This document shows positions 8,340-29,313 of a stretch of 32,655 bases of DNA, one piece after another. Below the pieces are notes generated by a model that was given only the letters and a program-made list of their open reading frames with translations, had not been told where the DNA came from and did no database searches. Source of the stretch: an uncultured Erysipelotrichaceae bacterium. Its GTDB lineage: Bacteria > Bacillota_I > Bacilli_A > RF39 > UBA660. The DNA lies in the NCBI GenBank assembly GCA_902783315.1, contig CACZQK010000009.1:1-32655 (forward strand), given 5' to 3'. The position numbers and the translations under genes are program-made. Numbering within the stretch: the stretch's first letter is position 1; the number at the start of each line of letters is the position of its first letter.

Positions 8340-10385
8340 GTGAGGAGTTTGTGGAATAAAATTAATCATTTTATAAATAGTATTATGTTTAGAGTTATAG
8401 GATCTATTATAATATTAATACTCATTGTTACTTTTGTTATTGAAATATTAAGTTTTACAATCTTTTCAAGGTCAATTATTGGAATGTATAAGAAAGATGG
8501 GGAACAAGTTGCGAAAGAGATACTAACTAAAATCAATACAAATAATTTTGACAACTATTTAAAGGAAGAAAAAGAAGAAGAGTATTATAATGATTATATG
8601 AAATTAATTTTGTTAGGACAAATGAAAGAGGTTTCTCGTATTTATATTATACAAGTTGATGATAAATTTGAAGAATGTACTTATATATTTGATGCGGTTA
8701 ATATTGATACGGCTGTCTATGATATTGGAGAAAAAGCAAAAATTAATAGTAAGAGATATAAAAGAAAGTTGAAAAATTTGTATTCGATGAAAAGGCCAAA
8801 AGAAAATTATATGAAAAGAAGTTCTAAAAATGCAGAGTCTTCTTATTTTACAACATTAGTTCCTGTAAAAAAAGCTGATGGTGAGATAGTAGGAATATTA
8901 GGCATACAGTATTCTATCAAAAAATTAGTTGTTTCTGGAGTTTCTTTTTCAATTTGGGCTAGTGTAATTACTATTTTAATTATTATTGTTATATCTATTC
9001 TTGTATATCGCTTTTTTAGAAAGAATATAGTATTACCAATTATTGATATTTGTGATGAATCTAAAAGATTTGCTAGTGAAAATACTATTGTTAAGGAAAA
9101 AATGTTGGAAGAAAAGTTAATAGAAGAGAATAGCAAAATAACAGAAATTAGAGAATTAGCACAATCTATTGATAAAATGGAATGTGATACAATTAAATAT
9201 ATTGATAATTTAACTATTGCTACTAAAGAAAGAGAGAGAGTAGGTACTGAATTAAAACTTGCTAGTGCTATTCAAAAAAGTATGTTGGCTAATGATTTAC
9301 CGAATTCTTCAAGTTTTAATATAAGTGCTACAATGATGCCTGCTAAAGAAGTAGGGGGAGATTTTTATGATTTCTATATGATTGATGATAATCATTTGGC
9401 GTTAGTTATTGCTGATGTTGCCGGAAAAGGAATACCTGCTGCTTTGTTTATGATGATTACTAAGGTTTTATTAAAAACAAGAATGTCTATTTCTTTAACT
9501 CCTGCCGAGGTTTTAACTGTTGTTAATAAAGAAATTTATAAAAATAATCAAACCAATATGTTTATTACAGTTTGGTTAGGAGTTTTAGAACTATCAACAG
9601 GTATGTTAACATTTTCTAATGCGGGACATGAAGATATTGCTATTTATAGAGAAAAGAAAAAGTTTACTATTCATAAGAAAAAACATGGAATAGTGTTAGG
9701 AGCATTTGAAGATTATGAATATAAGAATTATCATTTGAGGCTAAATGGTGGAGACAAGCTATTTCTTTATACAGATGGGGTAGTTGAAGCAATGAATAAA
9801 GATGGTACTATGTTTGGAATTGAACGAATGCTTGAGGCACTTAATAAATCAAAGGATGATAAAGTGAGTGAGATTTTAACTAATGTGCAATCTGATGTGG
9901 ACAAATTTGTAGGAGAAGCTACTCAATTTGATGATTTAACTATGTTAGCTATTGAATATATAGGAGTGGATAAAGAAATGAAGAAAACATTTAAGGCTAA
10001 AAAAGAAGAATTAGATACGGTCTTATCTTTTGTAAATAAGGCTTCAGCTGAATATTTAAATCCTAAATTTATGTCAAAGATTGATTTGGTCGTAGAGGAA
10101 ATATTTATAAATATTGTTAAGTATGCTTATGGTGATGAAGTTGGTGATGTCGATATTGAGGTTAAAGCAACTGATAATAAAGTTGTTATTTCGTTTGAAG
10201 ATACTGGGGTTGCTTTTAACCCATTAGAAATAGAAGAAGCTGATGTAACGTTACCGATTGAAGAGAGAGAGATAGGTGGTCTTGGTATATATATGGTAAG
10301 AAAAATTATGGATAATGTTGAATATATGCATAAAGAAAATAAGAATGTATTAGTTATTGAAAAAAATATTGATGTGGAGGGTTAG
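8340..10385 (+). CDS. Membrane PP2C (SpoIIE/RsbU-type) phosphatase fused to RsbW-like ATPase
   Basis: 681 residues. Transmembrane segment near 17-40, an outside sensor region about 42-195 that ends like a Cache-type domain (VGILGIQYSIKK), a second transmembrane segment near 203-224, then a HAMP-like linker. The PP2C domain (about 300-540) keeps its metal acids: GGDFYDF (D341), DVAGKG (D359), YTDG (D479) and FDDLT (D531, D532). The C-terminal GHKL ATPase (about 550-680) has the N box EEIFINIVKYAY (N591), DTG (621-623) and GGLGIYM (646-652). In partner switching, RsbU/SpoIIE-type phosphatases dephosphorylate a STAS antagonist and RsbW-type kinases phosphorylate it; here both sit in one chain, with a STAS gene in the same operon. 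GTG 8340 follows AAAGGTGG; the overlapping ATG 8338 is followed at once by TGA. Confidence 0.9.
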   Translation: MRSLWNKINHFINSIMFRVIGSIIILILIVTFVIEILSFTIFSRSIIGMYKKDGEQVAKEILTKINTNNFDNYLKEEKEEEYYNDYMKLILLGQMKEVSRIYIIQVDDKFEECTYIFDAVNIDTAVYDIGEKAKINSKRYKRKLKNLYSMKRPKENYMKRSSKNAESSYFTTLVPVKKADGEIVGILGIQYSIKKLVVSGVSFSIWASVITILIIIVISILVYRFFRKNIVLPIIDICDESKRFASENTIVKEKMLEEKLIEENSKITEIRELAQSIDKMECDTIKYIDNLTIATKERERVGTELKLASAIQKSMLANDLPNSSSFNISATMMPAKEVGGDFYDFYMIDDNHLALVIADVAGKGIPAALFMMITKVLLKTRMSISLTPAEVLTVVNKEIYKNNQTNMFITVWLGVLELSTGMLTFSNAGHEDIAIYREKKKFTIHKKKHGIVLGAFEDYEYKNYHLRLNGGDKLFLYTDGVVEAMNKDGTMFGIERMLEALNKSKDDKVSEILTNVQSDVDKFVGEATQFDDLTMLAIEYIGVDKEMKKTFKAKKEELDTVLSFVNKASAEYLNPKFMSKIDLVVEEIFINIVKYAYGDEVGDVDIEVKATDNKVVISFEDTGVAFNPLEIEEADVTLPIEEREIGGLGIYMVRKIMDNVEYMHKENKNVLVIEKNIDVEG

Positions 10386-10388
10386 AAT

Positions 10389-13300
10389 ATGTTATCATTT
10401 GTAAAAAAGTTTAGTGAAAACGTTAAGAAATGTCCTAATGTGCCTTTGTTCTTTGATGATATTAATACAAAGGGAATCAGTTATGCTAAAATAGATGAAA
10501 TATCTGCTAAAGTATACAATTATTTATCTTCTAAAGGAATTGGAAAAGAAGATTTTGTTTTGATTAAATTACCTCGTGGGGTACAACCAATACTAGCTTT
10601 AGTTGGGGTTTGGAAAGCTGGTGCAGCTTGTACGATTGTTGAGGATAATTATGCTGAAGAAAGAGTTAAATTTATTAAAGAAGATTGTAATTGTAAAATA
10701 GAGATTAATACAAAAGTGTGGGATGAAATATTAAAATTGGAGCCAAAAGAAGGATTTGTGGAAGCAGATCCACATGATGCATGTTTTGCTATTTATACTA
10801 GTGGAACAACAGGAAATCCAAAAGGGGTTTTACACGAATATGGAGATATTCCAAGGTGTGTTCAATCCGTTATGATTTCTAAGAATGAAGCTTTAGTTAG
10901 TAAAAATGAACATGCTGCATTGGTAGCTCCGCTTAATTTTATTGCTTCTATGTTATTTATTATTTATGTTCTATATAATGGAGTAGAACTTGATAAAGCT
11001 AAATTATATATTGTTTCTTATGCGGTATTAAAGAATCCAGTTGCTTTAAAGAAATTTATGTTAGAAAAGACAATATCTTTAACCTTTTTAACTCCATCTT
11101 ATTTAAGAATGTTAAAGGGGTCAACTGGGCCTTTCTTAAAAACAATTATTGTTGGAAGTGAACCAGCTAATAATGTTTATATTAAGAATGTTAAAGCTGT
11201 TAATACTTATACAATGAGTGAAACTTGTTTCTTAGTTAGTATGTTTAAAATAGATAAGTCTTATGAAACTTGTCCTATTGGAAAGCCTCCATTTGATTTA
11301 GAAGTAAAATTACTTGATGAAGATGGTAATGAAGTAAAGGATGGAGAAGTTGGCGAAATCTGTGTTGATAATCCTTACTTTAGAGGTTATATTAATCTAG
11401 AAGAAGAAACTAAGAAAGCGAAAGCTTATGGTTTATATCATACGGGCGATTTAGCAAGAGTTGATTCTAATGGTAACTATGTTTTATTAGGACGTAATAA
11501 TGACATGATAAAGATTAATGGTAACAGAATTGAGCCTGCAGAGATTGAAGCGGCAGTTAAACAAGTTTTGGGTGTTAGTTGGGTTGCTGCTCGTGGCTTT
11601 AATGAAGTAAACCAATCTTATATCTGTGCTTATTATAAAGACGATGTTACTTTTGATATTGATAAAGTTCGTGAAGAATTATTGAAGAGACTTCCTTATT
11701 ATATGTTACCAGCTTACTTTATGAAGATTGATGAAATACCATTAAAGGCAACTGGTAAATTAGATCGAAAGGCTTTACCTGTCCCAGATACGAAAGATTT
11801 TAAAAGTAATTATGTTGAACCAACAAATGAACTTGAAAAAGTATTGTGTGATTCTTTTGAAAAAGTCTTAGGAATTGATAGAGTTGGAATTAAAGATGAT
11901 TTTTATGAAATGGGAGGAGATTCTCTAAAGGCAATTGAAGTAGTTGTTGAAACAAAACTTCCTGGTATTAATGTTTCTCATATTTTTCGTGGAAGATGTG
12001 CTGAAGAAATTGCTAAGCTTTATGATGAATCGGTTGTTAACGATGATGGAATATCTATTGATCAAAAAAATGAAGAGTCGATGAAATTATCTCATCCTTT
12101 AACAACTGAACAGTTATATATGGTTGACTATCAATTATATACCCCTAAGTCTACAATGTATAATTTATTTACAATGTTAAAGGTTGATACTTCACTTTAT
12201 GATATGAATGAGTTAGTTGAGGCTATTTATAAAGTGTTTAAAAACCATCCAGCACTACTTACAACTTTCCATTTTAATGAAGATGGTGATTTAGTTCAGA
12301 AATATAGTCCTGAAGTTTTAGAAGAAATTAGAGTAGAGCATGTTTCTGAATTTGAATTTTCACAAATAAAAGATAATTTGGTAATGCCATTTAAACTTAT
12401 TAACTCTAAATTGTATCGCTGTCGTGTTTTTCAAACAGAAAAGGCTGGGTATGTCTTTATTGATATTCATCATTCTTTATTTGATGGAACATCTTTTAAA
12501 ATATTGATGGCTAATATGGTTAAAGCTTATATGGGAATGGAACTTGATAAAGATTATTATTATTACATATTAGATAAAAGAGAAAAAGAAAAAGATTCCG
12601 ATTTCTATAATGAGGCTCGTAAATATTATGAAAATAAATATGATGATGTTGAATGGTCTATTAAACCTAAAATTGATTTTGAATCTAGAGAAAATGAAAT
12701 GGGAGAATTATTCTCTAAATTAAATATTGAAGATATGGAAATGTCCTTAATTGAGAAGAATTTTAAGATTAGCCGAAATGAGTTTTTTATAACGGTAGCT
12801 TTACTAGCAATAGCAGAATATAATAAAAAAGATAATGTAAAAATAACCTGGATTTATAATGGTCGTGATGATATGAATGCGATGAATAGTGTAGGGTTAT
12901 TATTTAGAGATTTACCCGTTGCTTTGAAATTAAATAATAAATTAACAATTCGTGAATTATATCAAGATGTTCATAAACAAGTACAAAATGCAATTAAATA
13001 TAGTTGTTATCCATATGAAGATTTAGATGCTGAAGTTGTTTCTGAAGATGGTGCCTGTTTACTTTATCAACAGGATATTAGAGATGGTGGAGATTTAGAG
13101 GATATGAATATTGAAATGATTCATGTTCGTCAAAATCAAGCTGCTTCACAAGCACTTCTTGATATTCAAATTCTTGATGGAGAAGATGGACTTGAAACAA
13201 TGATAGACTATGCTGCTAGTCGATATAAAAAGGAAAGCGTAGAGAAATTTAAAGATATCTTTGTTCGAATTACACAATTGTTGTTACATCATACAACACA

Positions 13301-13394
13301 GGATGATATCACTGTTAAGGATATCAGAGAAAAAATTAATGGTAATAATAATATCTTTAAAATTGTTACAAGTATCTTTAGGAGAAAGGAATAA
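10389..13394 (+). CDS. Single-module NRPS: adenylation, carrier, condensation (A-T-C)
   Basis: 1001 residues. The adenylation domain (about 1-470) has YTSGTTGNPKGV (136-147), NTYTMSE, YHTGDLARVD, NDMIKINGNRIEPAEIE and the closing ATGKLDRKALP with its catalytic Lys. The carrier domain carries GGDSLKA with Ser512 as the phosphopantetheine site. The condensation domain (about 565-1001) has the HHSLFDG active site (694-700). There is no thioesterase or reductase. At the place where amino-acid-activating domains carry Asp235 (GrsA numbering), this one has Ile185 (LNFIAS), so the substrate may lack an alpha-amino group. With the C domain last, the loaded acyl group is probably joined to a free amine or a partner protein outside this window. 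It starts three bases after the phosphatase gene; GGAGGG site. Confidence 0.9.
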   Translation: MLSFVKKFSENVKKCPNVPLFFDDINTKGISYAKIDEISAKVYNYLSSKGIGKEDFVLIKLPRGVQPILALVGVWKAGAACTIVEDNYAEERVKFIKEDCNCKIEINTKVWDEILKLEPKEGFVEADPHDACFAIYTSGTTGNPKGVLHEYGDIPRCVQSVMISKNEALVSKNEHAALVAPLNFIASMLFIIYVLYNGVELDKAKLYIVSYAVLKNPVALKKFMLEKTISLTFLTPSYLRMLKGSTGPFLKTIIVGSEPANNVYIKNVKAVNTYTMSETCFLVSMFKIDKSYETCPIGKPPFDLEVKLLDEDGNEVKDGEVGEICVDNPYFRGYINLEEETKKAKAYGLYHTGDLARVDSNGNYVLLGRNNDMIKINGNRIEPAEIEAAVKQVLGVSWVAARGFNEVNQSYICAYYKDDVTFDIDKVREELLKRLPYYMLPAYFMKIDEIPLKATGKLDRKALPVPDTKDFKSNYVEPTNELEKVLCDSFEKVLGIDRVGIKDDFYEMGGDSLKAIEVVVETKLPGINVSHIFRGRCAEEIAKLYDESVVNDDGISIDQKNEESMKLSHPLTTEQLYMVDYQLYTPKSTMYNLFTMLKVDTSLYDMNELVEAIYKVFKNHPALLTTFHFNEDGDLVQKYSPEVLEEIRVEHVSEFEFSQIKDNLVMPFKLINSKLYRCRVFQTEKAGYVFIDIHHSLFDGTSFKILMANMVKAYMGMELDKDYYYYILDKREKEKDSDFYNEARKYYENKYDDVEWSIKPKIDFESRENEMGELFSKLNIEDMEMSLIEKNFKISRNEFFITVALLAIAEYNKKDNVKITWIYNGRDDMNAMNSVGLLFRDLPVALKLNNKLTIRELYQDVHKQVQNAIKYSCYPYEDLDAEVVSEDGACLLYQQDIRDGGDLEDMNIEMIHVRQNQAASQALLDIQILDGEDGLETMIDYAASRYKKESVEKFKDIFVRITQLLLHHTTQDDITVKDIREKINGNNNIFKIVTSIFRRKE

Positions 13395-13396
13395 TT

Positions 13397-14752
13397 ATGA
13401 CTGAAGAAGATAAATTGGTAGAAGATAGTGAGTTAAGTCAAGACTTTAACTTTTTCTCTTTAATGAAATTTGTTTTTCCTAGTATTTTTGCTTTTGTATT
13501 TATTGCTTTATATCAAATGGTAGATGGCTACTTTATTCAAAAGTTTGTTGGAGATTTAGCAATATCAACGGTTAATTTATATTTACCAATTTTATATCTA
13601 TTTATTGCAATAGGGGTTATGCTAGGAACTGGAGCAAATGCTATTATTGTTAAAAAAGTTGGTGAAGGCGATTTAAAAGCAGCGGGAAAGTCTTTTTCAA
13701 ATGTTCTCTTATTTACCCTTATTATTTCTGTTATACTTACTGTTATTTGTTTAATATTTCATGAGCCAATTATGTCTTTTTGTGGAGCGACTTCTGGAAA
13801 TGTTGGATATTTAAGACCGTATTATATGATTATGACTACTTTTTCAATAGCGATTATTTTGCAATCTCTATTAGGAATTTTGATTATTGGAGAGGGAAAG
13901 TCTGTAACAGCAGCCGTTGTTATTATCGTTGGTGGAGTTCTTAATTGTGTTCTTGATTATATTTTTATGAAGCATTTTAAATGGGGAATTAGAGGGGCTG
14001 CAATAGCTACAACAATAGGGTATACTAGTACAATTGTATTTGCTTTTTATTATTATATAATTGCTAAAAAAAGTGCTTATAAGATTGAGTTTAGTAAATT
14101 GGATTTAAGGCAAATAGGTGAGATATCTTTTAATGGTTCATCTGATATGATTACTAATTTAGCTGGAGCTGTTACTTCAATGATTATGAATCATTTAGCC
14201 TTTAAATATTATAAAGAGATTGGGGTTAGTTCTTTATCTGTTGTTTTTTATTTTCAATTTATTATGGAATCAATTTTTTTGGGGTTTACTTCAGCACTAG
14301 AACCTGTTTTTAGTTATCATTATGGTAGTGGTGATATAGAGATGAGAAAGAAAGTCTTTTCTCTTTCTAATAAATGGATTTTATTAATTTCAGTAATTAT
14401 TATTATACTTGCTTTTGTTTTCTGTGATAATATAGTATCTATATTCTTTGAACCTGGTTCAGAAATATATCAGATAACTCAATTAGGATTTAGAGTTTCT
14501 GTTTTAGCAACTTTGTTCTGTGGTTATAATACATTTTATTCTGGACTTTTTACAGCGTTTTCTAATGGATTAATATCAGCTGTTTTATCTATTACAAGAA
14601 CATTTGTTGTTTTAGTTATTTGTTTATATTTATTATCATATTTATTTCAAGGTATGGGACTATGGGCAGCCTGGCCAGTAGCAGAGGTAGTAGCATTTAT
14701 TGTAAGTGTTGTATTTATTTTAAAATATAAAAGTCAATATGAATATTTATAG
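13397..14752 (+). CDS. MATE family multidrug/metabolite efflux transporter
   Basis: 451 residues with about twelve membrane segments in two halves, as expected for MATE (NorM/DinF-type) antiporters that use a Na+ or H+ gradient. Typical features are the first helix with FPSIFAFVFIALYQMVDGYFIQKFVG, the GTGANAIIVKKVGEGD loop, and the second-half repeat starting near ISFNGSSDMITNLAGAV. It starts two bases after the NRPS stop with an AGGAGAAAGGA site inside the NRPS end. Placed between the NRPS and the STAS gene, it is the natural exporter of the product, or a self-protection pump; this is inference from position. Confidence 0.9.
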   Translation: MTEEDKLVEDSELSQDFNFFSLMKFVFPSIFAFVFIALYQMVDGYFIQKFVGDLAISTVNLYLPILYLFIAIGVMLGTGANAIIVKKVGEGDLKAAGKSFSNVLLFTLIISVILTVICLIFHEPIMSFCGATSGNVGYLRPYYMIMTTFSIAIILQSLLGILIIGEGKSVTAAVVIIVGGVLNCVLDYIFMKHFKWGIRGAAIATTIGYTSTIVFAFYYYIIAKKSAYKIEFSKLDLRQIGEISFNGSSDMITNLAGAVTSMIMNHLAFKYYKEIGVSSLSVVFYFQFIMESIFLGFTSALEPVFSYHYGSGDIEMRKKVFSLSNKWILLISVIIIILAFVFCDNIVSIFFEPGSEIYQITQLGFRVSVLATLFCGYNTFYSGLFTAFSNGLISAVLSITRTFVVLVICLYLLSYLFQGMGLWAAWPVAEVVAFIVSVVFILKYKSQYEYL

Positions 14753-14764
14753 GAGGTAATGTAT

Positions 14765-15061
14765 ATGAAAATGAATATTGAAAAGAAAGATAAAGAGTTA
14801 TTAATTAAATTAGAGGGAAAGTTGGATACAAATACATCTGCAGATTTGGATGCTAAAATGTCTGAGTTAGATGGAATGGAAAAAGTTGTTATTGATATGG
14901 AAAAACTTGATTATATTTCATCAGCAGGACTTAGAGTTTTACTTTCTATGCAAAAAATTATGAATAAACAAGGTAAAATGACTTTAAAAAATGTATGTGA
15001 AAATGTTATGGATATTTTTGAAGTAACAGGTTTTTCAGAAATATTAAATATTGAAGATTAA
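14765..15061 (+). CDS. STAS-domain anti-sigma-factor antagonist (SpoIIAA/RsbV-like)
   Basis: 98 residues, the size of a free-standing STAS protein. The site DYISSAGLRVLL (49-60) carries the Ser that RsbW-type kinases phosphorylate (S52 or S53) and PP2C phosphatases restore. ATG 14765 is preferred over ATG 14759 because AGGAGG at 14751-14756, overlapping the MATE stop, gives eight bases to the former and only two to the latter. The likely kinase and phosphatase are both in the fused protein encoded first in this operon. No sigma factor or separate anti-sigma factor is visible, so the output of the switch is unknown; it could act on the enzyme, the exporter, or the fused kinase itself. Confidence 0.9.
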   Translation: MKMNIEKKDKELLIKLEGKLDTNTSADLDAKMSELDGMEKVVIDMEKLDYISSAGLRVLLSMQKIMNKQGKMTLKNVCENVMDIFEVTGFSEILNIED

Positions 15062-15062
15062 T

Positions 15063-15578
15063 ATGATATATGTAAGCATAAGAAAAAAAGATGAAATTTC
15101 AATCGATGAAGATATTTCTTTTTCCAAAAACATTACAAGGGAGGAGAGTCGAAAAGCTTATTCTTTATTAAAGAAAATGATGGATTTTGTTGGGGTTGAT
15201 TTTGATATTTCTAAAGTAAGAATATCTAAAAATGGAAAACCTTACTTTATTGATAATCGAATCAAGTTTAATTATTCTCATTCCACTCATTATATTGCTT
15301 GTATTTTATCTGATTGTGAAGTAGGAATTGATATTGAAGATGATTTTAAAATTTCAAAAGAGGCAGCTTTTCTTTATTTAAATCAAGCCTCTTTCAATTT
15401 GAGATATCAATGGGTTATGAAGGAGGCTTATTTTAAATTTAAGGGAGATTTTTCAGAAGATGAATTTAAAAAGCTAAGAGTAGAAGATATTGATTCATTT
15501 CATCATATTATTGAAAACGATAGATATCTTTGTGTTGCTTTTTGTGAAAAAGAGGATGATATTGTATTTTTTAGTTAA
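15063..15578 (+). CDS. 4'-phosphopantetheinyl transferase, Sfp type (short)
   Basis: 171 residues, shorter than Sfp (about 224). It moves phosphopantetheine from CoA to a carrier-protein Ser, here most likely Ser512 of the NRPS. Motifs: GKPYF, FNYSHSTHYIACIL, EVGIDIED with the metal acids, and WVMKEAYFKFKG (the W-x-x-KEAxxK signature). ATG 15063 lies one base after the STAS stop and so is probably translated by coupling; a TTG at 15051 inside the STAS gene has no ribosome site. The C-terminal region is short, which may reflect narrow specificity for one partner. It is the last gene of the operon and is followed by a strong terminator. Confidence 0.88.
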   Translation: MIYVSIRKKDEISIDEDISFSKNITREESRKAYSLLKKMMDFVGVDFDISKVRISKNGKPYFIDNRIKFNYSHSTHYIACILSDCEVGIDIEDDFKISKEAAFLYLNQASFNLRYQWVMKEAYFKFKGDFSEDEFKKLRVEDIDSFHHIIENDRYLCVAFCEKEDDIVFFS

Positions 15579-24444: not shown

Positions 24445-25458
24445 ATGAGTAAAATAAAAGTATTAAGTAATGAAGATGTAAAAAAAATAATTAACTTGGA
24501 TATTGCTATTAAGGCAGTAGAACGTGCTTATAAGCAAAAAAGTAACAATAAGGGTAGTGTTTGGCCTATAGTGTTTTATGAGTATGAGCATAATGTTTTT
24601 GATTTGGATATTCGTTCTGGTAATTTAGTGGATAGTAATGCTTATGGCTTAAAAATGATTTCTTATAATGAGAATAATCCTTCTAAAAATCTTCCAGTTG
24701 TTAATGCGACAGCTTTAGTTTTTAATGATAAGACGGGTGAACCATTAGCTTTACTTAATGCTTTATCAATTACTTCATATCGAACAGGGGCGGCGGCAGC
24801 ACTTGCTGCTAAATATTTAGCAAAGAAAAATTCTAAAAATTTATTAATAATAGGCTCTGGTAATATTGCTAAGTATTCTGTGGCAGCCACTTTACATTTA
24901 ATACCAACGATTGAGAATGTTTATATATATAATGCTAGAAGAAAATTGGATGAGAAAGAATTATTAGCATTTAAAGAAGCGGTAAATCAGTTGTTAATTG
25001 CTTCAAATTCAAATTTAACGGCTAACTTTATGCTTGTTGATGATATAAGAAAAATAACGGGTAGTAGTGATATTATTATTACTGCAACGCCATCTGATAA
25101 AGCTATTATTGATAGTAGCTGGGTTTTACCAGGAACTCATTTTAGCTGTATGGGAGCAGGTTTAGTAGGCAAACAAGAGATAGATGAAAAATTATTTTCT
25201 AGAGCAAAAGTTTTTGCTGATGATAAAAAATTGTGCCTCGAGCAAGGAGAAGCGCAGACAGCTTATAAGAAAAAAATAATTTCTTCTTTTGATGGAGAAT
25301 TAGGTGATGTTCTTTTAGGAACCAATGCCGGTAGAAGTAGTGATAATGATATAACAATCTTTGATTCAGTAGGGCTCTTTTTACAAGATTTAGCTACTTC
25401 AATTGAATTAATAGAAGAAGCTAATCGAAAGAAAATAGGAGTAGAAATAGAGTTGTAA
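24445..25458 (+). CDS. Ornithine cyclodeaminase / mu-crystallin family NAD(P)-dependent enzyme
   Basis: 337 residues. Family marks: the substrate loop SYRTGAAAALAAKYL (near 112-126), the dinucleotide site LLIIGSGNIAKY (near 133-144), ITATPSDKAIID, GTHFSCMGAG and the C-terminal FDSVGLFLQDLA. The family includes ornithine cyclodeaminase (ornithine to proline plus ammonia), alanine dehydrogenases, ketimine reductases and siderophore enzymes such as SbnB, so the reaction here cannot be named. ATG 24445 has GAGGGA about nine bases ahead. It leads a run of five genes with gaps of about 25-30 bases; the downstream kinase-like protein suggests a small-molecule pathway. Confidence 0.87.
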   Translation: MSKIKVLSNEDVKKIINLDIAIKAVERAYKQKSNNKGSVWPIVFYEYEHNVFDLDIRSGNLVDSNAYGLKMISYNENNPSKNLPVVNATALVFNDKTGEPLALLNALSITSYRTGAAAALAAKYLAKKNSKNLLIIGSGNIAKYSVAATLHLIPTIENVYIYNARRKLDEKELLAFKEAVNQLLIASNSNLTANFMLVDDIRKITGSSDIIITATPSDKAIIDSSWVLPGTHFSCMGAGLVGKQEIDEKLFSRAKVFADDKKLCLEQGEAQTAYKKKIISSFDGELGDVLLGTNAGRSSDNDITIFDSVGLFLQDLATSIELIEEANRKKIGVEIEL

Positions 25459-25486
25459 ATTGAATTATTATTAATTGGAGGTTTTT

Positions 25487-27214
25487 ATGAATAATTTGTT
25501 TGATTATTTTACTAGAGTAAAATTTAAGTATGATGATTTGAAAAGTATTTTAGATAAAATAGTTGAGAATTATCATTTTACTGAGGTAAAATCATATTAT
25601 GTTATTGAAACTGGTTATGAAGATTTTAATGTATATATGGAAACTTTAAATAGTAAATATGTGGTTAAATTCTTTTCAAATGAAAGGTCTATGGAGAATA
25701 TTCATCATTATATAAAAATAGTTGATTCAATTTCCAAACAAGATTATTTAAATGTTCCTAAAGTATTTAGAAATGGAGATAATCTTTTGGGTAAAGTAGA
25801 CCAGAATAATAATGAAATATATTTTTTTGTAATGGAATACATTAGTGGTACAACCTTATATGATTTAGATAAAAAGATAGACTTAAAAACAATTATTAAA
25901 ATAGTATTTGATGTTTTAAAATATAATTGTGTTAATAAAGACTTAAAAGATTATTTATATACAGATGAAGCTAAAAAGTTTAAGCAATATGATATGTGGG
26001 GTTATGATCATTTTTTAGAAGAATATAAAGAAAAAAGTAAATACTTATCTTTAGAAGATAAGAAAATGATAGAACCAATCGTTTATTATTATAGGGACAT
26101 GGTAAAGCGTTATGAAAAATATGGTAAAAAGTTTAAGAACTTACCAGTTATGCCTCCTTATATGTCTGCTCATAATGATTTTATTTCTACAAATATTGTT
26201 TTAAAAAATAATGTAGAGCCATATTATATTGATTTTTCGGTATCATCTATTGCGCTTAATTTTGTTGATGTTGCGATATTTGGTTGTGATACGGTATTAA
26301 AAGATGGAATTACTGCTTCGGAGTATGCTAAGTATTTGAAAATAATTAGTTATATTTTATATCGAACTCATATTATGGAGTATAATTTATATCCGACAGC
26401 TGTTGCGGTGCAACATGCTATTCATGTGTTAATTGCTAATTACTATAAAGTACATGATGGAATTAATTCTTTGGAAAATGATTATTTTTTAAATCTTGGT
26501 AGAATAGGAATTAAGTATTTACAAGAGCAAGATTTAATTAATAAACCAGTTTTTAATTGGATTAAGAATGGTGATTGGTATGAAAGATCTGAACTTAGTA
26601 GAGTTTCAGAATATTCTAATATAAAGCAAGAAATAGAGGATTTGGGTTTAACTAATTTTATTGAAGATAATATAAAAGAATATTTCAAATTATATAATAG
26701 AAATAATAATGGTGAAGAATATTCTAATATTAAATTGGATGACTTATATCATAAAGGCTATGATTGGTTATATTCTTGTGTTGATAATGTTAAATCTAAT
26801 GAGACTATAATGGCAATTTCTTTTTGTAATGAAAATGAATGGAATGGAAAAAAAGAAGAAAATTTGTGGACTAGGCTTAATATGGAGGCCCTTAAGAGGA
26901 ATGTTTTTATGAAAAGGATATTTGTATATCCAGATAATAAAAAGAATCTAGTTGTTAATAATAAAGATATTCATCGATTTGTATCATATAAAAAGAATAA
27001 TTTGGAACTTGGATTTATTTCTGAGTCTAAAATACGTGAAGTATTGAAAGAAAAATTTGCTAAGATATATCCTGGTGTTTTAGTATTCAATGATAATATA
27101 GCTTTTATTGATAATGTTAATGACCCCGAAAATAGAGGATATAATGTTTTTGAAAAGGACAAAATCAAAGAATACTATGATATTTATGAAATTGTAAGAA
27201 AAAACTGTGACTGA
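25487..27214 (+). CDS. Aminoglycoside-phosphotransferase-fold kinase-like protein with extra C-terminal domain
   Basis: 575 residues. Residues 1 to about 345 look like the APH/choline-kinase fold: a Lys in YVVKFF (near 62), the hinge FFVMEYISG, the catalytic loop AHNDFISTN (H229, D231, N236) and the metal-binding IDF (D249, in place of DFG/DWE). It would phosphorylate a hydroxyl or act on an amino-acid-like substrate. After a linker (about 365-425), residues 430-575 form a further alpha/beta domain with IMAISFCNENEW, MKRIFVYPDNK and VLVFNDNIAFIDNVND; I do not recognise it, though its strand order could fit a phospholipase D-like or response-type fold. The ATG is chosen because GGAGG at 25477-25481 sits before it; TTG 25475 overlaps that site. 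Confidence 0.72.
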   Translation: MNNLFDYFTRVKFKYDDLKSILDKIVENYHFTEVKSYYVIETGYEDFNVYMETLNSKYVVKFFSNERSMENIHHYIKIVDSISKQDYLNVPKVFRNGDNLLGKVDQNNNEIYFFVMEYISGTTLYDLDKKIDLKTIIKIVFDVLKYNCVNKDLKDYLYTDEAKKFKQYDMWGYDHFLEEYKEKSKYLSLEDKKMIEPIVYYYRDMVKRYEKYGKKFKNLPVMPPYMSAHNDFISTNIVLKNNVEPYYIDFSVSSIALNFVDVAIFGCDTVLKDGITASEYAKYLKIISYILYRTHIMEYNLYPTAVAVQHAIHVLIANYYKVHDGINSLENDYFLNLGRIGIKYLQEQDLINKPVFNWIKNGDWYERSELSRVSEYSNIKQEIEDLGLTNFIEDNIKEYFKLYNRNNNGEEYSNIKLDDLYHKGYDWLYSCVDNVKSNETIMAISFCNENEWNGKKEENLWTRLNMEALKRNVFMKRIFVYPDNKKNLVVNNKDIHRFVSYKKNNLELGFISESKIREVLKEKFAKIYPGVLVFNDNIAFIDNVNDPENRGYNVFEKDKIKEYYDIYEIVRKNCD

Positions 27215-27244
27215 TTTTATATGCTTGTTAGGAAGGTAATTTTT

Positions 27245-27697
27245 ATGGGTAAAAAACTGTATTTTCAAAAATTTGAATTTAAGAAGTCAAATTATTTATT
27301 AATAATAATGTTGATGTTCTTCTTTACTTTTTTTCTTTTAGTTGCAATTTTTGGTAATGGAGAAAAAATGTTTTCATTAATTTTATGTGGTATAACATTT
27401 TTATTATTACTTTATTTTATTGTTTATGTTATATTTTCGGTGAAAGGAAATAAAATAGATATTTATGATGATCATATTGAAATAAGTGTTTTTAAGCTAG
27501 GCTTTTTTAGATGTTATAATCTTAGATTGTCAGAAATTGAGAAAGTTGAAATTTCTGATGAACTTGGTTGGTCTATTTGTTTTTATTTAAAAAATAGAAA
27601 GAAAATTAAATTTTTGGGAGTATATTTACCTGAAGGTAAGGGTATTTTTTATGAACAGAGAAAGTTTAGTAATGCTTTGAAAAAGGTTGGGTTGTAG
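27245..27697 (+). CDS. Small membrane protein with two helices and a cytosolic PH-like domain
   Basis: 150 residues. Two membrane segments (about 17-40 and 44-66) are followed by a soluble strand-rich domain, IDIYDDHIEISVFKLGFFRCYNLRLSEI and so on, ending in a helix. That layout is typical of bacterial PH-like (bPH) membrane proteins; no catalytic motif is seen, and the assignment rests on layout. ATG 27245 follows AGGAAGG by eight bases; ATG 27221 lies before that site. Part of the OCD run, with 30 bases to the gene before it. Confidence 0.6.
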   Translation: MGKKLYFQKFEFKKSNYLLIIMLMFFFTFFLLVAIFGNGEKMFSLILCGITFLLLLYFIVYVIFSVKGNKIDIYDDHIEISVFKLGFFRCYNLRLSEIEKVEISDELGWSICFYLKNRKKIKFLGVYLPEGKGIFYEQRKFSNALKKVGL

Positions 27698-27722
27698 AAT
27701 TTATAGATTGGTGGTGATTTAA

Positions 27723-28172
27723 TTGATTGAAGAAATTATAAATAAAAATCTTAAAAGAATAGAACATGATTTAGAGGAAATAGAGGGAATTCAAAAAATA
27801 GATTTTATTGATCTGTTTCCTATTAACCCGGAACATAGAGAGTCATTAGACCATGAGGCTTTGAAAATTGCTAAAATAATAGATAAGACAGATAGAGGAA
27901 ATTATTATTTATTGAATACGCCTTTAAAAACTAAGTATGGTGATTTAAGATTATTTAAAGTTCGTTTTTATGATGAAACAAGAACTAATTGGGAAGCAGC
28001 AGCAGATTTTTTAGTGGAAGATAGAAAAAAGTTAGAAGAGAAAGCTTTAACTGATTCTAGATTTACATATATTACAAGACCAAAGTGGGATGCAATAGAA
28101 TTTAGAACGAATAATACTTTGATTTATTTTTTGAAACCGTTGATTTCGGAATTATATTCAGATGTAATGTGA
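27723..28172 (+). CDS. Unrecognised soluble protein, 149 residues
   Basis: No family recognised. It has a helical start (IEEIINKNLKRIEHDLEEIEGI), a strand pair around YYLLNTPLKTKYGDLRLFKVRFYD, an acidic middle and a C-terminal strand-helix, TLIYFLKPLISELYS. It is compact, cytosolic and without Cys or signal sequence. The TTG start is supported by GGTGGTGAT just upstream. It lies within the OCD run, between the PH-like membrane protein and the Cys-Cys-tailed protein. Its size and position would fit a small partner or immunity-like protein, but there is no direct evidence. Confidence 0.55.
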   Translation: MIEEIINKNLKRIEHDLEEIEGIQKIDFIDLFPINPEHRESLDHEALKIAKIIDKTDRGNYYLLNTPLKTKYGDLRLFKVRFYDETRTNWEAAADFLVEDRKKLEEKALTDSRFTYITRPKWDAIEFRTNNTLIYFLKPLISELYSDVM

Positions 28173-28203
28173 TAGATAGAAAGGTGTTATTTTTGGGGGA
28201 GTT

Positions 28204-29313
28204 ATGGATTTTTTTGATGAATTAAGGAATCTGGAATTTAGACGAGGCTCATATGGGACTTTTGAATTAGGTCGATGGGATGAATTTGGAAAATGGGTAA
28301 TTGATCAATCTATGAGTACTTTACTTGGTTTGAACTCAATGGCATTGACACCAGATAAAGAGCAGATGAAGAATTTAGCTTGTATGTGCTATTTATTTGG
28401 ATTGTTCAATAATTATATTGATCATTTTGTAGCTGTTCCAGCTGGCTATATTGCTAGTTTTTCATACGAAGGTGTTTTTTTATCCTTTTATCCACAATAT
28501 ATAATAGAGCAAGCAAAAGTGCTATGCAGTTTTAAAAAATCCTTTTTAGAACAATGTGAAAGATGGGCAGATTCTAAATTTTATGAAAAAGTTTTAGAAA
28601 TATTGTCTACAGGTGATTCCCTTTTTAATATGGTTTCAGATATAGTTTCCCTTCCAAAATCAGATAATATTTCTAAACGCTTAGATAATGCTTTAGCGAC
28701 ATTTTCTAAAGTGGATTTAGATAATTGTGATAAAAATGATTTTATTTTAGAGAGTATTATTTCAGATGGCGAAGAAGAATTGAGTGAATTGTCTTTGGTT
28801 AACCAAATAGTGAAAAATTCTGATATTAAAACTAACGAAGCATTAAAATTCTTAGAACTTTATGATATGGGTAGTGGCCATTTTGATTGCAATAAAATAA
28901 GGAATTCTAAGAAAGTTTTTGATAATATAATGGAAGACTTTATTTTGAACGGATATTATATTTATAGGGGAAAAGATCGTGATGGTAAACTTATTAATCA
29001 AGATTGGATGATATTAGATCGTTGTAGTAGAATTTTGGAATTAAAAAAGTTGTTAAAAGAAGCGGTTCCTGATAAAACAGAATGGGATTATATTGATGAT
29101 ATTATTGATATATTTAATATATGCTCAACAGATTATACTGGTCCTGTCGTTTCTGAAATTTTAGCTAATTTGATTAATTATGATGTAAAAAAAGTTGATG
29201 AGGTTATTCCTACACAAGACTTGAATGAAAAAAAGAAAATTAATTCAAGAAATTGTCCTTTTGGTGTGGCTTTTAGAGAAGGGAGAACTAGAAAAAAGTC
29301 TCGTTGTTGTTGA
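28204..29313 (+). CDS. Unrecognised protein with a basic C-terminal Cys-Cys tail
   Basis: 369 residues, soluble, helix-rich. I do not recognise it. The N-terminal part has Tyr/Phe/Trp-rich patches (RGSYGTFELGRWDEFGKW). A mid segment (about 60-105) is hydrophobic but not clearly membrane-spanning. A low-complexity acidic patch (EEELSEL) follows. The end is NCPFGVAFREGRTRKKSRCC: a polybasic stretch, then two terminal cysteines. A GGGGGAG site lies just before the ATG. It is the last gene of the 24445-29313 run; I see no strong hairpin after it. Confidence 0.55.
   Translation: MDFFDELRNLEFRRGSYGTFELGRWDEFGKWVIDQSMSTLLGLNSMALTPDKEQMKNLACMCYLFGLFNNYIDHFVAVPAGYIASFSYEGVFLSFYPQYIIEQAKVLCSFKKSFLEQCERWADSKFYEKVLEILSTGDSLFNMVSDIVSLPKSDNISKRLDNALATFSKVDLDNCDKNDFILESIISDGEEELSELSLVNQIVKNSDIKTNEALKFLELYDMGSGHFDCNKIRNSKKVFDNIMEDFILNGYYIYRGKDRDGKLINQDWMILDRCSRILELKKLLKEAVPDKTEWDYIDDIIDIFNICSTDYTGPVVSEILANLINYDVKKVDEVIPTQDLNEKKKINSRNCPFGVAFREGRTRKKSRCC

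Follow-up and report, generated by a model that had tools for sequence, protein, structure and literature searches.

A single-chain A–T–C NRPS without the amino-group-binding aspartate as a candidate activator of a non-amino carboxylic acid

The A–T–C NRPS encoded in the analysed stretch of DNA (the window, 32,655 nucleotides, contig C9 of a 1.40 Mb genome that is 72% complete) is best read as an initiation-type module for the activation of a non-amino carboxylic acid and the synthesis of a conjugate that is exported. This reading proceeds from the residues of the adenylation (A) domain, its clade, the operon and gene counts in related genomes; substrate, acceptor, export and regulation are predictions drawn from them. 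A non-amino carboxylic acid is considered the probable substrate, and its combination with a freely diffusing acceptor is favoured with less confidence.

Operon and domain layout

Five genes run head to tail on the plus strand from 8340 to 15578 (Table 1). Since the intergenic gaps amount to 2–6 bases or are replaced by overlaps, the genes for SpoIIE–HATPase, NRPS, MATE, STAS and PPTase look like one operon. The SpoIIE–HATPase gene is the first of them and ends 3 bases before the start of the NRPS gene. In the promoter and terminator scan, promoter-like sites were rarer than in shuffles (38 compared to 50.3), and the scan yielded no informative site. Elsewhere in the window, at 24445-29313, a same-strand gene run was noticed that starts with an ornithine-cyclodeaminase-family-like protein and a phosphotransferase-like protein (both assigned by eye).

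Table 1. Features of the studied operon, given as positions of the window
Feature	Position	Strand	Basis
SpoIIE PP2C with C-terminal HATPase_c_2 (RsbW-like kinase), sensor-type phosphatase	8340..10385	+	Pfam SpoIIE 7.7e-52, HATPase_c_2 2.7e-21
A–T–C NRPS, 1001 aa, single chain	10389–13394	+	Pfam AMP-binding, PP-binding, Condensation; no further domain
Adenylation domain, residues 1-470	10389..11798	+	Pfam AMP-binding residues 9–334, E 3e-48
Ile185 codon, GrsA Asp235 position	10941..10943	+	Alignments
Met276 codon in A5 NTYTMSE, YGPTE proline position (LgrA Pro483, StsA Met415)	11214..11216	+	LgrA alignment (9be3 numbering), multiple alignments; StsA residue from literature
Lys457 codon, A10 catalytic lysine (GrsA Lys517)	11757..11759	+	Alignments
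Thiolation (carrier) domain, GGDS, Ser512	11841..12038 (end approximate)	+	Pfam PP-binding residues 485–521, 1.1e-5
Condensation domain	12096..13307	+	Pfam Condensation residues 570–973, 1.2e-36
HHSLFDG, canonical HHxxxDG of C domain, residues 694-700	12468-12488	+	Motif
MATE-family exporter	13397..14752	+	Pfam MatE 1.1e-31
STAS-domain protein, RsbV/SpoIIAA-like	14759..15061	+	Pfam STAS 6.9e-15; TIGR00377 4.3e-22
Probable 4'-phosphopantetheinyl transferase, AusB-like	15051..15578	+	NCBIfam AusB 2.3e-9 (under model cut-off); no Pfam match

Residues of the adenylation domain

The motif APLNFIASM covers residues 180–188 of the 470-residue A domain, and an earlier note on this DNA had read from it that Ile185 occupies the position of the conserved Asp235. 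This assignment was borne out by phmmer, by multiple alignments and by the whole clade described below, which is devoid of the Asp. In the phmmer alignment to LgrA, NFIASMLFI of the NRPS pairs with SFDGSALDI, placing Ile185 on the Asp. A multiple alignment with the DltA-like protein of the same genome (FSFDLSV; labelled DltA-like from its length and motifs) and with modules 2 and 3 of related NRPSs agrees on Ile185. A second sign, which the earlier note had missed, lies in motif A5, where NTYTMSE is found instead of NxYGPTE and Met276 replaces the Pro. This Pro is conserved in amino-acid-activating A domains.

The catalytic Lys, previously reported as kept, is K457 in PLKATGKLDRK. Since A3 (YTSGTTGNPKG), A7 (HTGD), the A10 Lys, the A5 Glu, GGDS and the HHxxxDG motif (HHSLFDG) are intact, the A–T–C protein looks active.

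The earlier note had also named an Asp elsewhere in contact with the substrate amine as evidence that would speak against its reading. The mapped pocket shell appears to hold no such replacement acid: E258 and E278 are its sole acids, and both positions are Glu in all ten comparators (see below) too. The shell was mapped by motif offsets from GrsA positions 210, 213, 214, 230–243, 278–279, 299–304 and 320–334, which we take to surround the pocket, and represents a sequence test rather than an overlay. In the other clade members pocket acids occur sporadically, in at most 5/32 at any other position. From the pocket code IALFIVTFL + K no safe substrate call was obtained.

The AlphaFold model of the protein showed a mean pLDDT of 75 and a pTM of 0.48, with segment 137–149 below a pLDDT of 50. 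Its comparison with GrsA (1amu) gave a Z of 35.8 over 436 residues at an rmsd of 11.4, with the LgrA P483M mutant (6ulz) a Z of 35.0 over 354 residues at 2.8, and with DltA (3e7w) a Z of 34.5 over 440 residues at 5.6. The high rmsd to 1amu is presumably due to the C-terminal subdomain being placed differently in the model. StsA was absent among the 50 structure matches listed and, by name, among the sequence matches listed, which is uninformative on kinship.

A clade of first-position A domains

When the species genomes collection was scanned with a pattern, 18 loci were obtained. All but L029, which matches at 23%, are close (17 loci, with 37–94% identity in the best segment). A profile search at E ≤ 1e-120, whose matches include multimodular proteins, found 23/397 genomes of the family of NC2004 and 5/395 of the class of the source genome, the source genome counted. 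From the loci of the pattern scan and 20 flank stretches, which do not represent all matches, 49 A domains were extracted. Seven were dropped before the tree was built, namely L079_2500 and L080 as unrelated AMP-binding proteins, L014 and L016 as near-copies, and three L028 modules copying L027.

In the tree of the remaining 42 A domains, 32 first-position domains, drawn from several Bacillota families and including that of the studied gene, lie on one side of a branch with a support of 100/99. At position 235 these domains carry Val (21), Ile (9), Asn (1) or Thr (1), and none carries Asp. The position of the A5 Pro is taken by Met in 14, Cys in 7, Ser in 5, Gln in 3 and Ala in 2 of them, so that 31/32 are without the Pro and L077 is the sole clade member to keep it. 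By comparison, all ten comparators show Asp at 235 and Pro in A5 (YGPTE). Among these ten are modules 2 and 3 of L027, L081 and L082 as well as module 2 of L083; judged by these residues, the starter module alone lacks the amino-acid hallmarks in such mixed proteins. Since modules 2–3 of the same NRPSs keep both Asp and Pro, the first domains would be starters ahead of ordinary amino-acid modules.

With Asp in 0/32 first-position relatives compared to 10/10 comparators, the missing residue is not a matter of chance or of a sequencing error. The corresponding Fisher P of 7e-10 overstates independence, because the 32 domains form one clade, and the loss of the Asp may be one evolutionary change instead of 32 independent ones. 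Since the pocket residues vary across the 32 members, a single substrate common to the whole clade is unlikely.

The A–T–C enzymes belong to a widespread, uncharacterised family in gut bacteria. The nearest named records to the studied locus are rumen MAGs called Erysipelotrichaceae, while the record names of relatives comprise Erysipelotrichaceae, Lachnospiraceae (including NC2004, whose record carries no MAG label), Ruminococcus, Saccharofermentans, Parasporobacterium, Clostridiales and Bacillales. Horizontal transfer is suggested by identities of 54–75% between records bearing these different names and by the mixed placement in the tree, with the caution that most of the records are MAGs.

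Substrate and acceptor

That the substrate is not an alpha-amino acid, as the earlier note had suggested, remains the best reading; it is favoured by the change of the A5 Pro to Met, the loss confined to first modules, the absence of a substitute acid and one 2-hydroxyacid dehydrogenase gene. The beta-amino and the typical aryl options, which the note had also listed, were not supported. Its statement that the Asp is lost in beta-amino-acid domains is wrong according to PMC11253843, in whose description VinN and others keep this residue (D230 in the VinN-type domain corresponds to GrsA D235 and is conserved). A beta-amino-acid substrate was set aside, since those domains keep the Asp and Ile185 is found here.

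The same pair of changes is described for StsA, which PMC11253843 presents as the sole crystallised A domain for alpha-keto acids, with Ile306 in place of the Asp and Met415 in place of the Pro. Ile185 and Met276 match this pair, with the StsA residues taken from that description and the numbering transferred via the LgrA alignment. The exchange M415P abolished the activity of StsA, and in LgrA either P483M or P483A led to a gain of some keto-acid activation (PMC11253843). However, the match is not clade-wide, as sister domains show Cys, Ser, Gln or Ala at the Pro position and L077 keeps the Pro. By Pfam no ketoreductase was found in the NRPS protein. Since the ketoreductase of depsipeptide modules is absent from it, the keto acid is left as one option among the non-amino acids and not drawn as a conclusion. 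Among the individual substrate classes, an alpha-keto or alpha-hydroxy acid is the leading candidate but a tentative one; a plain acyl acid is possible and is put forward yet more tentatively; an alpha-amino acid is unlikely, and any other substrate very improbable.

No biosynthetic gene that would provide the substrate or the acceptor was found to recur with the NRPS in the neighbourhoods. At one locus only, a D-2-hydroxyacid dehydrogenase is encoded directly upstream of the A–T–C gene (L026:4953-5945), a hint at a keto or hydroxy acid substrate there. At L018, L019, L065 and L066, which form part of the Val235 subclade, the gene next after the NRPS encodes a carboxylesterase-family protein, at the place that MATE holds in the studied operon; it was assigned by Pfam for L019 and by clustering for the other three.

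Loss of the Asp alone is no proof of a non-amino substrate. By analogy, the strongest counter-example is McyG, which carries Val at this position and was nevertheless crystallised with L-Phe-AMP (PMC11253843). Accordingly, the A domain could still activate a hydrophobic alpha-amino acid without the Asp clamp, giving a dipeptide-like product or an aminoacyl conjugate, and both in sequence and in fold it is closest to the amino-acid-activating LgrA, GrsA and TycA. We nevertheless regard this explanation as unlikely, as the A5 Pro was lost along with the Asp in 31/32 domains, a change which the crystallised keto domain links to non-amino substrates (PMC11253843), and the second and third modules of the same proteins keep both residues.

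For the condensation step, the earlier note had proposed that the C domain acylates an amine. Acylation of a free acceptor is indirectly supported by the gene content of the genus, which is consistent with it: the source genome and four congeneric genomes each contain exactly one C domain and one PP-binding match, which is the NRPS itself, in a search that showed neither AcpP nor DltC and may miss carriers. A single C domain was also found in 5/12 further genomes with relatives. With a single C domain and a single carrier detected in each of these five genomes, of which the source genome is 72% complete, a free small molecule is the most likely acceptor.

The same five genomes (G000, the source genome, G006, G030, G036 and G037) showed no AcpP-type carrier by Pfam PP-binding, and long AMP-binding proteins are present in them. 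The genus may be without its own fatty-acid synthesis, or divergent carriers may have been missed by the search.

Alternatively, the acceptor could be carrier-bound, with the C domain joining units on two copies of the protein, for example to a hydroxy-acid ester, or using another carrier such as DltC. The HHxxxDG motif is canonical for carrier-dependent C domains, the nearest solved relatives of the C domain in sequence are the C domains of bacitracin, tyrocidine and gramicidin synthetases, and a DltA-like gene is present in the genome. A bound acceptor is nevertheless doubtful, given that a single C domain and a single carrier were detected in each of the five genomes of this genus and that the source genome lacks any other NRPS-like A domain. 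The three other AMP-binding matches in that genome are the DltA-like protein and two proteins with A4 and A5 motifs unlike those of NRPSs.

An aryl acid of the DhbE type would also be compatible with a missing Asp (PMC11253843) and is nonetheless highly improbable as substrate, since such domains are described there with Asn235 and an A5 of the type QQVxFMAEGL instead of Ile185 and NTYTMSET, and no aryl-acid biosynthesis genes were seen by eye among the window ORFs. A degenerate A domain, with a different enzyme loading the T domain in its stead, can hardly be credited either: A5 and A8 do depart from the NRPS consensus, but an alignment of 13 rows shows no variation in the catalytic Lys, the A3 loop, the GD of A7 or the Glu of A5, and relatives carry the deviating A8 (GRNNDMIKINGNRIEPAEIE) with hardly a change, which fits constraint and not decay.

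Partner-switch genes and export

The operon encodes together the three parts of an RsbU/RsbW/RsbV-type switch, namely a phosphatase (PP2C), a kinase (HATPase) and a STAS protein. The source genome shows no STAS, SpoIIE or HATPase_c_2 match outside this operon. The same holds true for G037, while G006 contains one extra weak SpoIIE and one extra weak HATPase match. At least 17/36 loci showed parts of a partner switch close to the NRPS, as did L081 by Pfam in addition; these counts were obtained with single-sequence profiles and are lower bounds, and L079 is counted although it holds no clade member. No sigma gene was seen by eye in the ORF list of the window. Elsewhere in the source genome six Sigma70_r2 matches were found, and a Sigma-G-like protein (label given by eye) and other short sigma factors are present there.

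Several relatives differ in how these domains are joined. Beside NRPS genes, a MATE protein fused to a C-terminal HATPase_c_2 domain (RsbW-like) was observed at L079:5080-6849, L081:2831-4567, L082:2675-4510 and L083:12182-13909, suggesting that export could be directly controlled by the partner switch. Also beside NRPS genes, STAS is fused to an LPG_synthase_C-like domain (L069:5229-6521(-)) or to an APH-like domain (L078:2870-4036(-)). SpoIIE and HATPase, fused in the studied operon, are separate adjacent ORFs at L012, L016, L017 and L020.

Proposed pathway

In the favoured reading, the A domain would activate a carboxylic acid without an alpha-amino group, most likely a hydrophobic one from ordinary metabolism, and would load it on its own T domain, primed by the PPTase of the operon. 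From there the C domain would pass the acyl group on to a nucleophile that diffuses freely, most probably an amine or an amino acid, and the resulting product would leave the cell through the MATE protein. Together with the STAS protein, the SpoIIE–HATPase sensor would form a partner switch that controls the operon or its proteins.

A more far-reaching and rather unlikely version would be that one-protein A–T–C amide synthases across the gut join a common keto, hydroxy or acyl acid with a free amine to an exported signal, and that the partner switch gates synthesis or export directly and not only by transcription. If such direct gating were true, the fusions of MATE with the HATPase kinase in relatives would be its physical link. 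Since the A–T–C gene is small, should need a PPTase only and seems to work independently of a partner NRPS, one in vitro experiment could identify substrate and product.

Comparison with known systems

Over the whole A–T–C length, the best solved relative is A1-T1-C2 of LgrA, the initiation module of linear gramicidin. Contrary to the studied protein, LgrA keeps the Asp and YGPTE and continues into further modules. LgrA also carries a formylation domain.

StsA and other alpha-keto-acid domains share with the A–T–C protein an aliphatic residue for Asp235, which is Ile in both StsA and the A–T–C protein, and the Met for the A5 Pro (PMC11253843), whereas the residue before the Met is Gly in StsA and Thr here. 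In depsipeptide modules an embedded ketoreductase reduces the keto acid; the A–T–C protein has none. McyG resembles it in the aliphatic residue at the Asp position and differs by the L-Phe-AMP in its crystal (PMC11253843).

As for gene company, Methanobrevibacter ruminantium M1 encodes NRPSs beside serine phosphatases, an anti-sigma factor antagonist and a MatE exporter (mru0066-0071 and mru0513-0516), and at another place these regulators accompany a PPTase, as reported in PMC2812497. The association of NRPS, regulators and MatE was thus described in 2010 and is itself not new. The likeness lies in the gene company; those NRPSs are multimodular, the one at mru0068 starting with a C domain (PMC2812497), and the A–T–C protein is a single module. 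In titles, abstract openings and passages of the literature searched, including the rumen BGC survey PMC8241843, no description of the A–T–C cassette was found, the nearest being the M. ruminantium clusters and the gut fatty-acid-amide (FAA) systems.

A domains without the Asp were already known, so that by itself the missing residue is no surprise. The significance lies in its loss being the mark of an entire clade of first modules from Bacillota of rumen and gut. In its logic this clade comes close to the gut FAA systems (OaaA/OaaACP/OaaC of Coprococcus eutactus), in which carrier-bound acyl groups are joined to free amines (PMC13142362) and whose products act on human receptors. Both occur in gut Bacillota; in FAA systems a carrier receives a non-amino acid from the A domain, and the C domain forms an amide without an acceptor carrier (PMC13142362), and by analogy the same is proposed for the A–T–C protein. 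While the FAA C domains mostly show (D/H)HxxxDS/A and only 17% of them have Gly, as given in PMC13142362, the A–T–C protein carries HHSLFDG. By its fusion and its HHxxxDG motif it is not a member of the FAA systems, but it may work like them, built as a single chain where FAA uses three free-standing proteins (PMC13142362).
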